From Zarea fungicola (lineage: Eukaryota > Ascomycota > Sordariomycetes > Hypocreales > Cordycipitaceae): a stretch of 64,000 bases of DNA. The position numbers and the translations under genes were made by a program. Below, in pieces: positions 51,916 through 63,895 of the stretch (position 1 is its first letter; every line of letters starts with the position of its first letter). Under the pieces are notes generated by a model. That model saw only the letters and a program-made list of their open reading frames with translations, was not told where the DNA came from and did not search any database. The stretch lies in contig FWCC01000327.1 of NCBI GenBank assembly GCA_900169235.1, positions 62,001 through 126,000 of the forward strand, written 5' to 3'.

Positions 51916-54900
51916 TCAATCTAATTTGATCGTCACCCACCATACCTGACCCGATTGGGAACCTATGTACAAAGTTGAGCCCTCAACTGCGTATTCTTGG
52001 GGACGAAAGTTTGGGGGAATCCAGAGAACTTTCATTCCGTGGTGTAAAATCCAGCCGTGACCGCGACTTATTCCATATTGCGGAAGAGACTGTAAACAAT
52101 CCATAGGCTGTGACGGCTTTGATATTGCCAAAGAAGTCCATTCAAGCGCCCCTGCATCTGTGACGAGCTGTGTAGTGCTGTGCGGATTGAAGGAAAGGCG
52201 GTAGATGAATTTGCCAACAAAAAAGCTCTTCACACAATTTCGAGTACTTATATCCCATATTTTAACACAATTTCGAGTACTTGTATCCCATATTTTAAAA
52301 CAAGGGTCCTCTGCATAGGATGCAATCTGTTTTCCATCGCTGGAAAACGCTACCGATGTGACAGTTCCCATGTGGCCCACGAAACTGGAGAGGCACTCGG
52401 CGGACTTGATATCCCAGAGTTTGATGGTTGAATCTCTGGATCCGGAAGCAACTTTTTGTCCGTCAAAGGAGAACGACAAGGAAGAAACACTTTCCTGATG
52501 ACCTTCTAAAGACACTAGACCATTACCGGAGCTGGCACACCAGATATTCGTCGTCTTTTGGTTCCCACATGCGACTAGTTCTTCATCTGGAGAGAATGCC
52601 AATGGTGTCGCAAAGGAAAGAACAGAGGAACGGGCAGAATCCAGCTTGAAAGTTGCCAAGCAACCACCAGACTTCACGTTCCAGAGTTTCACGACTCCTT
52701 TCATATCTGCTGACACTGCTTTCTGGCCAGTGAGAGAAAGTGCGACACATGTTATAGAAACCTCATGGCCAGCCAAAATTGTTGGCTCGTAGCTAGTATC
52801 TGGGTTAATATCGACGATATCCCACACTATAACATTTTTCCTAGATCCAGAAGCCACCTGTCTGTCGAGTGTAAAAGGCCGGCGACATCGTAGAAAGTCA
52901 CCTTCATAGGTATGCAGACAATCACCAGATGCTACATCCCAAAACTTTGCGGTGTCATAACTCACTGTCAAGAGAGTCTGCCCATTATTCAAAACGGAAA
53001 CTACATTCACTGAGTCTTTCTTTTTCCTGATGTTCGACGGACCAGCGACAGCTAAACGAACATCCCAGATTTGGAGCCTGCCAGATATGACTGTCGCCAG
53101 TTTTTGACCGTCATGGGAAAACATCAGTTCCTCGGCGTATATTCCGAAGCAGTGAGCTGATTGCAAGCAAATCCCGGAGGCAGTGTCCCATATTTTAACA
53201 TCTCCATCATGAGTGACCGAAGTCAGCCTGTCCCCGTCCTGTGAAAATGCAAGTGCTCCTGTCCCGAGAAAAGGATCCACACAGATAGCCAGACATTTCC
53301 CAGTGCTAGTAGACCATATCTTGACCTCATACACGGAACTAGAAGCGAGACGCAGGCCATCGTGCGAGAAAGATAGTGATGTCGCGGAAAAATGGTGCGG
53401 CGCGTTGATTGCTAAAGTGGTGCCAGTGTTTATTTTGTAAATGTGAATTCCCGACGAATCTTGCGAAGCGAGATGATGACCTTGATGCGAGAAAGCCATT
53501 GGCTCTGTTATTCCACCGTTCTGAAATGTTTGAATCTCATTGCCCGTGTTTGTATCCCATATTGTAAGGCATTCCTCAGACGCTGTGGCGAATCGCTGAT
53601 TGTCATGCGAGAGAAGAGCTAGTTTAGCTTGTCCAGTCCGACTTTGGACGCTTTTCAAACAAATTCGTTCTTTGGTATCCCATACCTATATATTTACGGT
53701 TGGATTATGATTTTCTGAGATGCAAAACAGCTGCTGGCTGTCGCGCGAGAGGCCAATTGACATGAGCCCTCCAGCGCCAGTATCAATCGTTTGCAGACAC
53801 ACCCCTGAATTTACATCCCAGATCTGAATAGCTCCATCATGATTGGCCGAAATTAGACGTTGACAATCATATGAAAATGCAATACATTGGACAACCCATG
53901 GCTCTGTTTGTATATTCAAGACAGACGTATCCCAATGCTCTGTGACCTGTGCTTTTATCGTTAACCATTCGGGCAGCTGTTCTTTATTTCTTGCAATCTC
54001 CCCGATTAAGCTTTCCGAAGGGCTAAACAGGAGTACGGACGCGTAGATTTGCAGTGGTGCGGCTTCGATCACACTCCTGAATTCTAGTAAAAACCGCCAG
54101 GCATCCTGCAGCAATTTCTGGTCATCTGTCCGACCGAGGCTGTCCTATGAACTGTAAGCACGTTTTCAGCAACCTTGGTCATGTCAGAGGCTAACCATGA
54201 ATTGAGCCATCTTTTGTACAGGCACCAGTACGTTAGATAGCCTATTTAGAAGGCTGAGCGCCTCTAACCAGTATAGAAACTTTTCGCGAAGAAATTTAGA
54301 TATTGAGTTAGCGGCTTCCTCCCTTTGTGCCAAGACAAACGACTCTTGAAATGCCGAACTTTCGAAGTGGTCGACCCAGAAAACTGTAGAGTAGCCTATT
54401 GAGTCTAGCGGCTCCAAATTGGGTTTTGTTTTACGTTCATTAAAGGGCCCGAAAAAGTTGAGGTCGCATATATCGCGTCGCAGTGTCAATGACAGTTGCT
54501 CAAGGGACCTCAAAAATATATCATAATTCCGTGCTGCCCAGCCGGATGGTGCGATAAAATCGGTTTTCTCCTGGACTAAGTAGTCCTTCGCCGATTTGTG
54601 TACGAAGCTAATCACCTGATCTCGGATCGCAAGAAACGAACCACACCTCACAACTAACTTTGTTATATCCTCGAAATCATAATTCTTGGGCAATTCAGTA
54701 GCGAGAGTTCGCAACTCGCCTAGTTTGACTGGACGAGCCACTATCGAGGCGATTGCCAAAATCTCCTTGCAGATTCTCTCATGCTCGGAATCTTGGATTA
54801 CCTTCCACATTTCCGAATAGAAGGCATCCAGTCCTTTCGGAAGAGCCTTGAGCTTCGATTCCAGGTCACCTTTCAGAACCTTTGGGTCTACCAGTACTTG

Positions 54901-57039
54901 GCAGACCAAGGAGACCCATAGAAAGGTTCCCTCGGAATTTTCAATGAGGTGGTTTTTGATGCGGGCGGCGACGTCTTCATTGAGTCCCCTATTACTCTGG
55001 AGTTTACCGACTGCATTATCGATGTAGGCTCCTATAGACTTCAATATTTCATTTTGTTTCTCTTCAAGCTGAAATTCGACGCGTCTTGACACAACACCAC
55101 TGCATTGGGGGGCAGAGAGAGAGTCATTGACTAGACCATTGAAGCCGGAAGCCGGCCAAACCAGGTCTTTGCGACTGGTGACAAGCCATTTTGCATTTGA
55201 GGAAGACGGGGAGCCCAGAATGAGCTCAAGAAGCTTATCCTGTTCTTCATCGCACTCATCTAAAGCATCAACAATGAAGTAGGTGTTGTGGGTCTGCAAA
55301 TCACCCTAAGACTTTTGTGAAGAGATTGGAGAGAGCCTCCCATGCATTAGCACCCTCAAATGGCCTTGTTCCTGATCCATCGTTGCAGCTGTTATGTATG
55401 TGGGAAACAAGGGCGTGCTGTTGCTTGACGAGCATCCAGAGGAGCCCACGCAAAACTGCGGTGCCCTTGTTTAGCTTATCGTTGGTGGCTTGACAGAAGA
55501 AGTAACAAACATTGAAGCTTTGCAATTGCTTGCCAGTCGCTTTTGTCAGCTCATCGACAATACCACACACGAGCATTGTCTTGCCCTTGCCGGGATCTCC
55601 GCTTATCCAGAACACACCTGCGTCTTCCCCTTCTCTCCACTGCCTGAAATCATCGTCTTCAAGAATCCAAGAGTACGATTCTGGGAGCGGACTCCCCTTA
55701 GATCTTTCTAGACATTTTTTCTCCAAAACCTGGTTAGTAGCCCCCAGAGCCTCGAAACAAAGTTGATCTTCTTTATTCGAAATGTGTTGTTCCATCCGCT
55801 GCGTAAAGTCAACCAAGCTATTGATCTTGTCAAAGATGTCATCGAGATTTTTGCGTATATTTCTTGCTTCCTCCCCAAGCGAATGAAGCTCTTGCTTGCT
55901 CTCAATGGAGATATGTAGACTGAGCTTTTTCTGTATCTCTGCTTCTGATTCCCGAATCTTATTCAGCTTGCCCTTCCAGTCTCGAAAAAGAATGGATCCC
56001 TCGATAAATCTTTTGAATCTGCTGCTGAAAAAGTGTAAAATACTTCTTATTTCAAACTCGATAAACATTTGGTAAAGATTAATCATCTCCTCCCTGAGAT
56101 GGTCCTTGGCTTCGTCCGACAGGCGGCTATCATAGCTCGCAGTCACATCAAGGACTACTGCTTCCATCTTAATATAGTAGTGTGTCTGTGTCGTAACGTA
56201 GTCAAATCCTTGTCGCTGATCAGATTCGGCAGTGGCCGGATTAAAAAAGAGAGGGAGAACCAGTGAGACACCAGCCATAACCACGGCGGTGTTAGGGAGA
56301 TCCTTGACGGCCTGTTTGATAATATTCTGAATCGGCTCAACGATCCCTGCAGTCTTTGCCATGATGCTAGTCACACTAGGTTCATGCCCCCAAAGTCTCA
56401 TACAAAGTTCCTTATCTTTCATTTGTTGAAGACCGAGGTCAGCGATGGTTTGAACGAGCTGTCGCTGCTCGTCCGTGTCAGACTGGAGAGCAGGGTTCAT
56501 CATCTCATTAGTGCTGCTACTGTCTGTTACAGCAGACGAGTCTTTATAGGTATGTAAGTTTAAGAATGAAGATGAAAGAAATTGGACTTTAACTCACTTT
56601 CCCTGTAAACCCTTTCTAAAATATCGGCATATGCCGTCATAATGCGATCAGGGTTTTGCTTCACAATCTTATTGTAGGCTTGGTTCCAGAGCGAACCATC
56701 ATTCTTTGACGGAATTGCTGCAGTGCCACCGCTAATGCGATTTTCAACAGACGCGGGCTCAGGAACAGCACCTGGTGTCACCATATTTGGGCTAGTTAAA
56801 TTCTAGATCGTAGGGACTGATTCATCATTACGGTTCGAGGCTCTCGAGGAAGCTCCACTACGTCGAAACGCGTCCCAACGATTGGCCACACTCTTCCGGA
56901 ATGAACTCTTTTCTTTTGCGGACATTTTGCGCGGAATGGTATGTATTGGCCGGGCTGTGGAGTGTTTCGAGGACGAGGAGTAAAGAAAAGAAGATCGTTT
57001 GTGTGAGACGGCACTGGTGCGATGATGACGCTGCCTCAC
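51916..57039 (-). pseudogene. NWD-NACHT-WD40 NOD-like receptor, broken
   Basis: Minus-strand gene with introns at 56542-56597 (56 nt) and 54145-54195 (51 nt). Order: an N-terminal NWD segment (SLWNQAYNKIVKQNPDRI), a helical signalling region, a NACHT domain with P-loop SGDPGKGKTML and Walker B VDALDECDEEQ, a helical arm, and about 14 WD40 blades. Three breaks are seen. A 1-nt surplus (GGG for GG) near 55304 shifts the frame just before Walker B. A 6-nt insertion at about 53684-53689 puts TAG inside the second blade, where NIWD is expected. A TAG at 56803 separates 78 in-phase upstream codons from the ATG at 56784. If intact it would be about 1,590 residues. Such proteins are allorecognition/immune receptors (HNWD, HET-E type). 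Sequencing error cannot be excluded for the frameshift. Confidence 0.85.
52232..52297 (-). repeat. 33-bp in-frame tandem duplication inside a WD40 blade
   Basis: Two copies starting at 52232 and 52265 differ at one base and encode KIWDTSTRNCV then KIWDISTRNCV. The extra 11 residues lengthen one blade. Confidence 0.85.
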
Positions 57040-58029: not shown

Positions 58030-61000
58030 TTATAATAGCTTCAGCTTCGCCTCTAATCCGCGCTCGGATCTTTCTTGCTCCATCACCCTTAGCTTCTCCA
58101 AGACCCAGGGCATCTCGCGGTATGCAGGGTCAGTCTCGTGCCAGGAAGGCCACTCAAAAAGGATAGTCTCCGCCTGGTAGCCCAACAACAGCGACAAAAT
58201 CTCAGCTGTATTCCCATTTATGAACGTGAGGGCGCGCCTGACTGCCAGCATATCCCCGACGTCTATCCAACGAAAAGCAGTACAGTCCTCAGGGTAGCAA
58301 TATCGGTTATATGCTATGTCCAACGGAGTCTGTCCTTGCTTGTCAGCGGTATCAACGGAAGCTCCCGCTTCAAGAAGTGTGCGGACGACCTTGTAGTTCC
58401 CGATCAAGGTGGCCATGCTCAGCGGCGAGGCCCAAGTGCTCGACTGGCAAAGGTTGAGCTGATCAGGCTGGTTGTATTTTTGCAAAAGCGTAAACACAAT
58501 CAGTTTTGTGGTCTCGGCCTCCTCTGGATCTTCGTTCGAAACGTGAATCGCGCAATGAAAGGCAGAGAACTCCTCATCAGGATCGTGGTGGCGGAGTACG
58601 ATGAATCCATCGCTTCCTCGGTCAGGAAGGCTGAGAAGGAAACGGATACGCTTCTCTGAGCCTCTAGTGTGATTCCTGAGCAAAAGGCCAAGAGTTGTAT
58701 AAGACTCCCGCCCTTTACCCGGATGGAATTCATCTCTGTCAAAGCCTTGGTCATACAGCCACCGTGCAGTCTTGAGGTTGCCATTCTGCACGGCCACCAT
58801 GAACGCCTCTCTTGGACGTGTCCCCGTCTCCGTCAACGAAGCTCCCGCCTCAACTAGCATTTGGATGTAGAACAAATCATCGGTTTCCTCACACGCTCGT
58901 AGTACTGCATCACAGCCAGCCGTGTCGATCGCGCGAACATTCACACCGTGTTTAAGCAGCAGTTCAAACTGGCCACGATTCTGGTGAGTGATTGCAAGTA
59001 GGAGCGCTGTGCCGCCGGACGTGGCCGTACCCCAGATACTTTCTAGATGGTCTCCAAAGCCAAATTCAAGACCGGATCGCAGGACGTCAGGATTGCAGTC
59101 ATGGTAAGCGACGGCAAAAGTCGCGCTCATTGTATGATTCGGCATCACCATCATAACAGCGTCTGTGGACGCACCATGATAGACAAGGAGCTCAATCACT
59201 CGTCTAGTCTCGGCCTCCCATGACAACCCATTGCGCATGAGGCACTTCCATCGTCTGTCGCCAGTTACCACCCAGAATAGTGGTTGAACAAAGACTTGCG
59301 AGCCTCCCTGAAGCTTTACCCAGGAAGCGAATGAGGCCCTGACTGCTTCGTAACCGAGAAACAGTTCAACTGCTGGCGCATAACTGAGGCAACATGCGTA
59401 CACGAACGCCGATTTTCCGTAGTTCAATCGATACAGCGGGTCAGCCCCATTGTCTAGGAGTATGCGAAGTGTCGTCACACTTTGGGCATCAATCGCCCAG
59501 TGGAGGGGGGTTCCTTGGACAGGGTGGTTCGAAAAACAATTGAACCAAGCTGGTTTGCCGTAACTGTTGTCGTCCCATGCATTCACATCATTTCCAGCTC
59601 CTTTTAGTAATTCAAGTGTTTGCGTCTGCTCCTGCTCCGGAAATCGGTGGAGCCAGTGTAGAGGCGTTGTCCGCTGCCATGCATCGCCATTCAGGGTCGC
59701 GCCTTGAGAGAGAAGCATCTTGATCATCCGGAAATTGCCATGGCGGCTTGCAAGAAGCATAGGCGTCTCTCCGTCCACGACGTTATCTTTCAAGGCTGAA
59801 TCGTTCTTGAGAACCATCTGGGCCAGCTCCAGTTCTTCGTTGATAATGGCATAGCGCAGAAACTGGTCTTGCCAGCCCCTCGAGTAACAAAAGCTGACTG
59901 GGTTATCCTGAAAATTATACCTGTAGGTGTGGTCAAGCCCCTGGCTTTCATGGAATTTGAAGGATTCTTTCAGCCGCGCATGGGCCCGTGCTCGTATAGC
60001 CTCTCCTGACGTGCCGGAAAATGCATGCACGGGTCTAGAGATGCCCGCCTCAATGATATTTTTGAGCCAAATCTCTCTCAGCATAGGGTTAAAGGTGGTG
60101 GTATCCGAGGCTGGGTATAGATCCACGAGTAGTTGCTGTGCAAGGGTATTTCCAAGATGCGCACTCTGGTGTAGCATGTCTAGTCCCCTCTGTAAGTCGT
60201 ACCTGGAATCTACATCATCAATGGTAAGGCAAGCAAGATTGAGAAGAGCCCAGCTCTTTCGTTCAGGATCTGACGGCTGTGTTGAATACGCTAGAGTTTC
60301 CAGGTCCAGAGCAATCTTTTCCTTTACCATGGCGGGTATCCGCCTGAGAGAGGCGCCAAGGCGATGCAGCTAAAGCAAGAGCAGTTTGTCAGCTTCATCT
60401 TAGACAGTCTTGAAAGCAACTCACGTCGGGAGTAGTATTTTTTGAGAATTGGAGCGGTAAAAAATCTGGCTTCGCCCTGTGAAGATTAGAAAATGGCTAG
60501 ATGGATGGAATGCACAAGACAAGGCGATACCTACGACTCTGAAGGTGCTTGGGTAGCGCCAATTCGCAGTATCGATGCGAAATCCGAGAGTAAAGAACCA
60601 AATGAGTCCATATTTGGTACGAGACCACATAATGCCCTTGTAGCTGTCGTGGTAGAAACGCAGAATGTCTGAAAATCCTTCCAGTCGCTGTGAGATTTGC
60701 ACCAGTATTCCACTTCATGCCGAGCTCTCATATCCAAAAGTTGACGAGTTGCCGCGTTTGGCATTTCATCTGGAGAGAGACCGGCTAGAAGTGATCTCAA
60801 TGCGAGATTTTGTATGTTTTGAAATTGGTTCCTTGTAAGACAATAAAACGATTCGGATAACGGCGGAGACTCTAGGGAATCGCTATGCGTCACAGAGGTG
60901 TCGGCATAACGCAGTATTGACAGGATATCCGCCATGCTATTAAAACGCTTTTTTGGTACCGTATGAAGGCAGAAGAATAGTATTCTGCAAATAAGCAGTG

Positions 61001-61967
61001 CTGGACACTCATCATGCTCCAGTTTATGGAGGAAGTCGGTAAGGACGACGCCTGCAAGCAATCCCGCTTGCTTGAGTCTCTGCACTTCAGCATCGCGGGT
61101 ATCCTCTGGGAGAGACTCATGGTAGGATAATCCGTTCCTAAACACAGTATGAACAAGTAGCCCGTAGGAAAATATATCCAGTTGTCGTTGATAGCGCAGG
61201 TCAATTGTACTGTTTGCCTCTGGGGCTGCGAAATACTTGGTGTAGCCAATGAGACGGTCATCGTTCTCGGCCAGTGCGAAACCAAAGTCTGTGAGCTTGA
61301 CAATGAACCGTCGACTCGGATGTTTGAACAAGAGAAGGTTGGATGGCTTAACATCACCGTGTATGATTCCGCAGGAGTGGAGCACTTCGATCCCTTTTGC
61401 GGTGTCTCCCACAATGTCAAGCTTGTCTGCATATGAAGTTCCGTATCCGGCTTGCTGGTAGTCTTTGACACTTCCGAGCTCTGCAAACTCTAGAACAAGG
61501 GCTGGAATGATATTCGGTTTATCCATATCTCCGGCGTCGTGGAAAATCACTCCGAGAAGATCAATTATGTTCTCGTGCTTTTGGAACGGCATATGTCGGA
61601 GTACCTGTAGCTCTGTCGCCAGCTCTGAATAAATATCTTCGACTGGCACACTGTCGATTTCCACACGCGGATGTTTAACGGCAACAAATTCTCTACCTTT
61701 GAAACAATTGTCATCCAAGCCCGTAGGAAAAGTCGAGAACCGTACCTTGCGAACCTCGAACGATACGCCGCCCATGGTCACATCTGCCCATTTGAAGGAT
61801 CTGGTAGTGAGAACTGGCAGAAATTTAAGATGCTGCCATCTCTCATCTTCCAGCAAGATCGCAAGAAATGCAATAAAGTCTGGACAGCGTGATTTGGCGG
61901 GATGGCAGGCTAAGTCTTGGACCAGGCCATGAGGCGTCGTCAGTGGACGGCCGAAGAAGGAAGACAT
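58030..61967 (-). CDS. Protein kinase with C-terminal ankyrin repeats
   Basis: Three exons (61967-60535, 60476-60425, 60369-58030; introns 58 and 55 nt with CTAAT/CTGAC branches) give 1,274 residues in one frame. Taken alone, the two large open frames look like separate genes. Kinase domain at about 65-360: K98 in FVAVKHP, catalytic H203-G204-D205 with K207 and N210 (HGDVKPSNLLL), D227-F-G, APE at 248-250, and DIFSYG. All catalytic residues are present, but the Arg of HRD is Gly (non-RD type). After a linker, the last 600-700 residues hold an array of ankyrin repeats (GETPMLLASRHGNFRMIKML, GTPLHWAIDAQSVTTLRILL, and others), in the middle interrupted by non-repeat stretches. Likely a cytosolic signalling kinase. 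It is head to head with the HeLo pseudokinase. Confidence 0.9.
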
Positions 61968-62320
61968 TGTTTATTGTATAGACTGCCCAAGCCAGCTTGT
62001 ATACTGCAGATGCTCCTGATGTTTGATATGGCCTCCGAAGTTGAGATTGTAAACATACTATTGATGCGGAGCTGATTTGGTTTGATTGGCCAGCTGCATG
62101 GAGTAACCCCTCAATTGATGATCAACGGGCCGCATGTTTCAAGATTGTGGCGTAAAGACTATTTACGCATGTGACAAGATATTGCCTACGCCAATTGGAG
62201 TTAAGTGCTTAAAGCTGAAAAAATTGGCGCGGTATGGCATTGCTGCTCGCTGCCCAATTGTCAGGGTCTGCACGTTGTCAAGCTGCACAATAAATTCCGG
62301 TAATCATTCATCTGTAAAAC
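61968..62320. promoter_or_regulatory. Shared divergent promoter, kinase-ankyrin and HeLo genes
   Basis: Only 353 bp separate the two start codons, so both genes must share upstream DNA. No strong TATA box is seen in either direction. Confidence 0.6.
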
Positions 62321-63895
62321 ATGGCCGACGAACTCTCCCTGGTCGGATTCCGTATCGGTGCAGCAGGCATCGGGTTGGGGGTATTCAGCACCACACTCGA
62401 CCTCCTTCACACTTGCAAGCGGGGCTACGATGCATGGAGAGGCTTGGAAGGGCTCGATCGAGATCTCAGCATGCTCAGAGCGCAATTAGTTTTACAACAA
62501 GATCTTCTAGAGCAATGGCAACGAGACTGGTACGGATTCGCAGTAACGGATAGTGTCTCTGTCACAAAGCTTCGGCTGCTCAAAGAGCACAACGAAACCG
62601 TGGAACTTGTCCTCGGGTCTGTTCAGAGTCACATTGATGGCATGGTATCTCTCAGAGATTTTGCGCAGTCCGGTCGAACACCGAGCGGAATTGAGAAGGC
62701 GAAATGGATTTTGAGCGAGCTGGACACGAGCAGAAAATCATTGAGTGAGATCACATCACTGCTAGAAGGTCTCTATCGATTGCTTCCACCGCGAAGCCCG
62801 AACCCTGCGGCCGCTCAGGCCATCATTTCTCTCAACGACCGTGAAGAGGGATTGGGCGAAATTGAGACTGTCCTCCGGTCAACATCAAGTCAAGCCGTAA
62901 TTTACAGGACACTGGATTTACGTCGAGCCGAGAAATCCTTACAGGAGGAGCTTGAACGACGTGTTTCTGAGATGAACAACGGCCCGTCGGCGCTCGAGTT
63001 GGTGATTACGCCCGCGAGATGTCAAGTGGGTGAGGAGGACAAAATTTCTGCGGGCTTCCGTCGCTTCGGCAGGTTAGATGGGCGGCCTGCAATAATAGAG
63101 TGGAAGAGGTACGACAGGAGATGGCAAGGCGTTGAACGAACTAAGCTGGATGGCCGCATTAAGAATCTGGCGCAGCTTCTGCACAATGAAAGCAAACCGG
63201 AGGAGCTCAGAGTTCTCCGATGCGACGGCTATTTTGACAACCCTACAGACAGTCGGTACGGCTTCGTCTTCACGCTGCCCCAACCATCGGACGGGTATCC
63301 AACCTCGCTCAGGGAAGTGATTGGGGACAAGAGCTATGATCACCTACCCACGCTTGAGGAACGCTACCAAATCGCATACTCTCTTGGGCTGTCTGTTGCT
63401 ATCCTGCACACCACCGGCTGGCTCCACAAGAGCATCCGTAGCCACAACGTGCTCCTGTTAAAGCAAAACCAGCGCCCGGTCTGGTGTCGGCCCTATCTAG
63501 TCGGCTTCGACTACTCGAGGCCTGAAGGGCGGGACGAGTCGTCAGAGAAACCTGAACAAAGCAGGCGCTTTGACATATACCGCCATCCACTGAGTCAAGG
63601 CACGCCAAATGAGCGGTACAGGAAGGAATTTGACTACTACAGCTTTGGTGTTATCCTTGTTGAGATTGCCGGGTGGAGGCCAATATGGGATATGTGGGCA
63701 GATGGAACGCCACCAGAGACCTTTAGAGCACAGTTAATTGCGACGGTAGAGCAGAAGGTGCCGCATCGGATGGGTCGAGACTATGCGGATGCAACGTTGA
63801 AGTGTTTGAGCGGAGATCTGGCCAGACGAGATTCCTCGGAGCTCAAGGCGTTCTTCATCGAAGTAGTTGAGGTGCTCGGGAGGCTGATTACCTGA
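62321..63895 (+). CDS. HeLo-domain pseudokinase
   Basis: Intronless, 524 residues. Residues 1 to about 220 are a HeLo (prion-inhibition) helical domain: FRIGAAGIGLGVFSTTLDLL, then YDAWRGLEGLDRDLSMLRAQ and LLEQWQRDW. From about 230 a kinase-like fold follows. The beta-3 Lys is kept (K262 in IIEWKRY). The catalytic loop HRDLKPEN reads H369-K-S-I-R-S-H-N, losing the Asp. The DFG position reads G395-F-D, so it should be inactive. HYYSFGV-type helix F is present (EFDYYSFGVILVEI). HeLo domains of HET-S and HELLP insert in membranes to kill the cell, and animal MLKL has the same layout: a four-helix bundle followed by a pseudokinase. A cell-death or allorecognition role is inferred, not shown. Confidence 0.88.
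   Translation: MADELSLVGFRIGAAGIGLGVFSTTLDLLHTCKRGYDAWRGLEGLDRDLSMLRAQLVLQQDLLEQWQRDWYGFAVTDSVSVTKLRLLKEHNETVELVLGSVQSHIDGMVSLRDFAQSGRTPSGIEKAKWILSELDTSRKSLSEITSLLEGLYRLLPPRSPNPAAAQAIISLNDREEGLGEIETVLRSTSSQAVIYRTLDLRRAEKSLQEELERRVSEMNNGPSALELVITPARCQVGEEDKISAGFRRFGRLDGRPAIIEWKRYDRRWQGVERTKLDGRIKNLAQLLHNESKPEELRVLRCDGYFDNPTDSRYGFVFTLPQPSDGYPTSLREVIGDKSYDHLPTLEERYQIAYSLGLSVAILHTTGWLHKSIRSHNVLLLKQNQRPVWCRPYLVGFDYSRPEGRDESSEKPEQSRRFDIYRHPLSQGTPNERYRKEFDYYSFGVILVEIAGWRPIWDMWADGTPPETFRAQLIATVEQKVPHRMGRDYADATLKCLSGDLARRDSSELKAFFIEVVEVLGRLIT

Follow-up and report, generated by a model that had tools for sequence, protein, structure and literature searches.

A divergent kinase-ankyrin and HeLo-pseudokinase gene pair of Zarea fungicola retained in distantly related fungi: a candidate cell-death module

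In a 64,000-nucleotide stretch of the genome of the fungus Zarea fungicola (contig FWCC01000327.1, positions 62,001 to 126,000; hereinafter the window, with all coordinates counted from its first letter), a gene encoding a protein kinase with C-terminal ankyrin repeats lies head to head with a gene encoding a HeLo-domain pseudokinase. Relatives of the two genes share contigs in several other fungi, and the pair appears to have stayed together in distantly related lineages. By the standards of a sequence study, there is good support for a conserved module of two genes. This module might be a co-inherited cell-death system in which, as the most probable of the readings that we considered and one that we put forward tentatively, the kinase switches the putative executioner by phosphorylation.

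Gene organization

The components of the pair are as follows.

58030..61967, minus strand: kinase-ankyrin gene, three exons, 1274 amino acids (splice model)
60535..61967, minus strand: exon 1 of the kinase-ankyrin gene, with the kinase domain at residues 92-343 (K98, E119, H203-G204-D205, N210, D227; Pfam Pkinase and aligned rows)
60477..60534, minus strand: intron 1, 58 nucleotides, GT..AG, frame continues
60425..60476, minus strand: exon 2 (splice model)
60370..60424, minus strand: intron 2, 55 nucleotides, GT..AG, frame continues
58033..60369, minus strand: exon 3, ankyrin repeats preceded by about 150 residues that match no Pfam family
61968..62320, no strand: intergenic region between the two start codons of the divergent genes, 353 bp (from the sequence)
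62321..63895, plus strand: HeLo-pseudokinase gene, intronless, one open frame, 524 amino acids
62321..62965, plus strand: residues 1-215 of the HeLo-pseudokinase, HeLo helical bundle and linker helices (PF14479, alignment columns and models)
62981..63892, plus strand: pseudokinase fold, residues about 221-524 (HRD changed to HKS, DFG to GFD)

The divergent arrangement and the spacing of the start codons are exactly as described in an earlier sequence-only reading of this DNA. The kinase-ankyrin gene starts with the ATG at 61967 and ends with the stop codon at 58032-58030. Its splice model is supported by the best protein match, P0060 from Pseudogymnoascus (1275 amino acids), which aligns over the full length of the model (100%) with 77% identity. 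Exon 1 matches Pkinase with 91.9 bits (cut-off 31.7) and exon 3 matches Ank_2 with 112 bits (cut-off 27.3) in four stretches, the best of them at exon residues 172-263; these are the only Pfam matches of the protein, with none to NACHT or NB-ARC. The residues that the sequence-only reading had assigned to an intact kinase are present at the respective positions, namely K98 in the context VAVKHP, D205 in HGDVKPSN and D227 in LTDFG.

The second gene encodes a HeLo domain followed by a kinase fold that lacks the catalytic Asp residues, in the order seen in MLKL, again in agreement with what had been read from the letters. PF14479 is matched at residues 16-106 with 28.7 bits (cut-off 23.2), and also in the related proteins P0028 (25.8 bits), P0022 (44.0 bits) and P0002 (34.0 bits). 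The Pkinase match (21.6 bits) falls below the cut-off of 31.7, and DUF7580 scores 26.4 bits against a cut-off of 27 in the protein, rising just above it (27.2) in the genome search. An AlphaFold2 model of the whole protein (predicted local distance difference test score, pLDDT, 83.7; predicted template modelling score, pTM, 0.87) is helical up to residue 217 and adopts a kinase fold from there on. The N-terminal helix (residues 11-29) is rich in Gly and Ala. Modelled alone, the HeLo half reaches only fair scores (pLDDT 69.5, pTM 0.60), and by sequence it has no match in the PDB up to E = 10. The best protein match of the HeLo-pseudokinase, likewise from Pseudogymnoascus, is 86% identical.

An apparently active kinase next to a family of dead ones

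The kinase-ankyrin family was delineated as proteins P0060-P0080 (21 of 69 matches) together with P0130-P0140 (11, from the best 120 of 158), the other rows of the 158-match search being treated as generic ankyrin proteins. Within this family, HGD and N210 are invariant in all 23 aligned kinase rows, and K98 and E119 are present in each of the 21 ungapped ones. The window protein is thus apparently a working protein kinase, judging from the conservation of these residues. The Arg of HRD is replaced by Gly throughout (HGD in 23 of 23; residues 203-205, window region 61340-61370), and therefore the members of this family are non-RD kinases, a type often tied to innate immunity.

By contrast, the HeLo-pseudokinases have lost both catalytic Asp residues in 42 of 42 aligned rows, which makes the dead site the conserved state of this family. 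The alignment comprises the window protein and 41 of 59 matches (P0030, P0043 and P0044, which are partial, and the distant P0045-P0059 were left out). In the window protein, Ser stands in place of the HRD Asp and Gly in place of the DFG Asp; across the family, the former position is S in 36 rows and G in six, and the latter is G in every row. The beta-3 Lys (K262) and the catalytic-loop Asn (N376) are retained in all 42 rows, and the protein as a whole has 42 invariant columns. The contrast between an active and a dead kinase that the sequence-only reading drew from one pair accordingly extends to both families.

Several individual family members deserve mention. In P0072 from Rhizodiscina lignyota, the DFG region of the kinase reads RGFDYS, similar to the dead site of the HeLo-pseudokinases, with HGD still present. 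P0137 from Pochonia chlamydosporia (428 amino acids) is 82% identical to the kinase-ankyrin protein over 47% of exon 3, the values in the same exon 3 comparison being 79% for a Pseudogymnoascus protein and 33% for Ophiocordyceps; P0137 might stem from a transfer between distantly related fungi. Among the HeLo-pseudokinases, P0035 and P0037-P0042 form a subgroup for which the precomputed Pfam list gives no HeLo domain and which has the same activation-loop motif, described below, where this is readable.

A conserved Ser/Thr stretch in the pseudokinase activation loop

The activation segment of the HeLo-pseudokinase contains a short conserved element.

63533..63571, plus strand: activation-loop stretch, residues 405-417 (DESSEKPEQSRRF), with conserved Ser/Thr and for the most part predicted to be disordered

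Residues 405-414 of this stretch read DESSEKPEQS, and residues 399-412 are predicted to be disordered in the AlphaFold2 model. Position 408 is Ser in 36 and Thr in six of the 42 rows; position 407 is Ser/Thr in 32 rows, position 414 is Ser in 41, and Glu409 is invariant. The [ST]EK motif occurs in 38 of the 40 family members that could be read, with SER in its place in the remaining two, and in none of the eight readable rows of more distant relatives (the pattern left 4 of 44 family and 7 of 15 outgroup sequences unread). It is also missing from both HeLo-pseudokinase paralogues in the Z. fungicola genome. In human MLKL, the sites phosphorylated by RIPK3, Thr357 and Ser358, are located in the pseudokinase domain, according to the accessible text of the source (PMC11476962). 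The parallel is one of position and chemistry and suggests that the fungal loop might be phosphorylated as well.

Linkage in other fungi

Five of the 30 kinase-ankyrin family rows are located on the same contig as one of 43 HeLo-pseudokinase family rows, compared with none of 103 rows of unrelated ankyrin proteins from the same search. In this count, a shared contig was recognized by identical size in bases and the same source label, along with locus tags, and rows without a stated contig size were left out. In Fusarium decemcellulare, the two genes have consecutive locus tags on an 18841-base contig (NM208_g6413 and NM208_g6414), and in Ophiocordyceps australis the tags are two apart on a contig of 269024 bases (CDD81_1468 and CDD81_1466); Pfam matches for kinase plus ankyrin repeats and for HeLo were found in the proteins of both species. 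The three further linked contigs span 11843, 12295 and 19933 bases, and because they are so short, the genes must lie close together. The sequence-only reading had proposed looking for the pair in other genomes and would have been refuted if the two were never neighbors there; this check was run in part, and relatives of both genes share a contig in these five cases.

Identity to the window proteins in the linked pairs ranges from 31 to 77% for the kinase-ankyrin protein and from 42 to 81% for the HeLo-pseudokinase. Over the six linked pairs, including that of the window, the two identities vary in parallel (r = 0.993), a value reached by one of the 720 possible relabellings, the true one. Such parallel divergence fits long joint inheritance, and alone it is no proof of interaction.

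At the level of named genera among the matches listed, the HeLo-pseudokinase is present in nine and the kinase-ankyrin protein in 10, with five (Pseudogymnoascus, Ophiocordyceps, Fusarium, Colletotrichum and Verticillium) common to both. Co-occurrence across genera, which the earlier reading had proposed to test, is thus incomplete: it extends to these five, and not to the four and five genera, respectively, in which one family appears alone among these matches. Absences from genera are weak evidence because no protein search scored more than about 8000 candidates, and one contig per cluster was shown.

HeLo-type genes elsewhere in the genome and the surroundings of the pair

Scanning the 43.1-Mb Z. 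fungicola assembly yielded 10 HeLo matches, spread over nine contigs, and 10 DUF7580 matches, each on its own contig; together they involve 16 contigs. Among the 125 of 202 kinase candidates that were scored, one lies within 5 kb of such a match, and this is the pair in the window, with 672 bp between the matches; on this count, the idea that HeLo-type genes generally cluster with kinases in this genome was considered and is rejected, although some kinases may be missed. A kinase is at 6.5 kb on contig C169 and at 41 kb on C115, and on the remaining 13 contigs none was matched among the scored candidates. The contigs of both HeLo-pseudokinase paralogues belong to those without a matched kinase. 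One paralogue, on C112, is found near genes for a sugar transporter and a beta-galactosidase. The other (L046, on C315) is near a dual-specificity phosphatase gene with DSPn and DSPc matches. On C115 (L008, 101439-102026), a HeLo gene is situated between ankyrin-repeat matches that are at most 4 kb away on either side. The kinase-ankyrin gene itself has no close paralogue in the genome, the next-best match scoring 39 bits.

In the window, a gene of the NOD-like receptor (NLR) type, split over several frames at 51916-56593 on the minus strand, contains NACHT_N (136.8 bits), NPHP3_N/NACHT and WD40 matches. It lies next to the pair, more than 1.4 kb past the stop codon of the kinase-ankyrin gene, and might belong to the cluster as a third gene.

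Possible mechanisms

The features described above are compatible with the following scheme. The kinase-ankyrin protein would act as a sensor-kinase whose repeats perceive a signal, such as a non-self, pathogen or stress product, upon which the kinase domain would be released or clustered. The active kinase would then phosphorylate the activation loop of the pseudokinase, with S407, S408 and S414 as the candidate sites; the change in the loop would cause the pseudokinase to free the HeLo bundle, and the hydrophobic N-terminal helix of the bundle would attack the plasma membrane, resulting in cell death. Individual steps of this kind have precedents in the killing by HET-S, in two-gene fungal death clusters and in the phosphorylation of MLKL at Thr357/Ser358, as far as described in the accessible portions of the respective papers (PMC12881547, PMC11476962).

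Several observations weigh against this scheme. The DFG Asp is kept in 21 of the 23 kinase rows and replaced by Gly in P0072 and P0078, and the fold of the HeLo half matches known structures weakly. The conserved loop might serve for docking rather than as a substrate. The linkage in other fungi is co-location on a contig, as distinct from conserved order, orientation or a common promoter, and parallel divergence is expected of any two co-inherited genes. Finally, among the matches listed, Leptodophora, Tricladium, Elaphomyces and Dactylonectria have the executioner alone, and Cenococcum, Rhizodiscina, Rachicladosporium, Cylindrodendrum and Pochonia have the kinase alone.

Of the alternatives, the one that fares best, and is still unlikely, is restraint: the kinase would keep the pseudokinase inactive through binding or inhibitory phosphorylation, and its loss or tampering with it would free the executioner, as in a guard/guardee or poison-antidote arrangement. 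Tight divergent linkage and co-inheritance are as compatible with an antidote as with a trigger, and binding could take place at the conserved loop; however, the kinase has kept catalytic residues that pure binding would not need, and executioner-only genera among the matches listed are awkward for an essential antidote. Ranking next, and also improbable, is the possibility that the two genes are neighbors without a joint mechanism, either as two immune-type genes clustered with an NLR or through common regulation only. The co-location of both families in Fusarium, Ophiocordyceps and on three further contigs runs counter to this explanation, as does the finding that, among the kinase candidates scored, the only HeLo/DUF7580 contig of 16 with a kinase within 5 kb is that of the pair, even though the NLR-type gene next door (NACHT_N, NACHT, WD40) and the presence of each gene without the other in several of the listed genera speak for it. 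Least likely of all, the pseudokinase could be a sensor decoy that is bound or modified by foreign or upstream kinases, comparable to the pseudokinase decoys of plants, with the kinase-ankyrin protein as a scaffold or co-receptor; the strong conservation of the pseudokinase surface (the invariant columns noted above) and the retention of the beta-3 Lys and of the Asn of HRDxxxxN would fit, but a decoy is expected to vary, yet this family is uniform, and sensing would more naturally fall to the partner with the ankyrin repeats.

Switching by phosphorylation thus remains the best of these readings, ahead of restraint, plain neighborhood and decoy in that order, and we adopt it provisionally. The fuller claim that the pair is a dedicated and conserved fungal kinase-to-pseudokinase phospho-switch controlling a HeLo executioner is possible, and more doubtful.

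Comparison with known systems

The kinase-ankyrin protein had been likened to RIPK4 and ANKK1, animal proteins with an N-terminal kinase and C-terminal ankyrin repeats. The domain order, including the catalytic residues of the kinase, agrees, whereas the fungal protein has 1274 amino acids and a long middle region, and sequence matches give no evidence of kinship. Specifically, the PDB matches of the kinase are generic: the best is MAPK12 with 49.5 bits, and the best 60 of 77 include MAP kinases, MAPKAPK3 and ULK2 and no RIPK, so that its identification as a RIPK finds no support and 'RIPK-like' describes the layout only. RIPK4 and ANKK1 are not known to activate MLKL.

Plant MLKLs and wheat Pm13 act in immune cell death and likewise join a HeLo/four-helix bundle (4HB) to a kinase or pseudokinase; unlike the fungal pair, the accessible text of the source describes no dedicated adjacent kinase gene for them, and the kinase of Pm13 itself is predicted to be active (PMC10951266). 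Fungal necroptosis-like pathways often consist of two- or three-gene clusters, as stated in the part of a recent review available to us (PMC12881547). In the NLR-HeLo clusters nwd2/het-S and pnt1/hellp, a sensor gene adjoins a gene for a HeLo-type executioner, as presented in the accessible portions of two papers (PMC12881547, PMC7885112), whereas the sensor candidate here is a kinase without a NACHT or NB-ARC match and the NLR gene is a separate neighbor. The RHIM core [IV]Q[ILV]G is absent from both window proteins, RHIM-type cores being the only amyloid motifs sought; amyloid templating is therefore not supported for the pair.

Some HELL domains occur together with a kinase or pseudokinase domain in one protein (PMC12881547), and the HeLo-pseudokinase of the window is one of these HeLo/HELL proteins. 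The executioner is thus of a known kind, already in print, and the new element is the dedicated kinase partner. In their accessible portions, the reviews (including PMC12881547) describe fungal HeLo executioners as fired by amyloid templating or NLR fusion and leave the regulators of HELL-pseudokinases unnamed; a dedicated kinase partner is not named there, and the loop motif sets apart the clade of the window protein. Among the best-ranked papers listed from one open-licence library, no title, opening of an abstract or passage describes the pairing of a kinase-ankyrin gene and a HeLo-pseudokinase gene. A conserved partner kinase would provide a concrete, testable regulator for the HELL-pseudokinase class; if the scheme is correct, fungal HeLo proteins could be fired in a third manner, beside amyloid templating and direct NLR fusion.

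The closest parallel in layout is RIPK3-MLKL. In both systems, an active kinase is accompanied by an executioner that carries an N-terminal helical bundle ahead of a C-terminal pseudokinase, and the activation loop of the fungal pseudokinase carries candidate phosphorylation sites. Unlike the animal genes, the fungal ones are adjacent and divergent and encode no RHIM core, and the fungal kinase has ankyrin repeats; the fungal pair is known here from sequence, and kinship of its kinase with RIPK is unsupported by the PDB matches. In profile searches, the pseudokinase matches MLKL with E values of 6.9e-4 to 2.9e-3, tied with IRAK4 (3.4e-4) and LIMK1 (7.7e-4), and with a 121-residue piece as the query LIMK1 is best (2.5e-7; MLKL 0.042). 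MLKL is absent from the best 50 structural matches to the whole model, which is no evidence against MLKL likeness. Should the loop turn out to be a substrate of the kinase, the necroptosis logic, from kinase to pseudokinase to membrane, would be no animal speciality, and the two-gene fungal version could be rebuilt in laboratory yeast to study how a pseudokinase releases a killer domain. The fungal pair would then represent either an old cousin of the RIPK3-MLKL logic or a separate invention of it.

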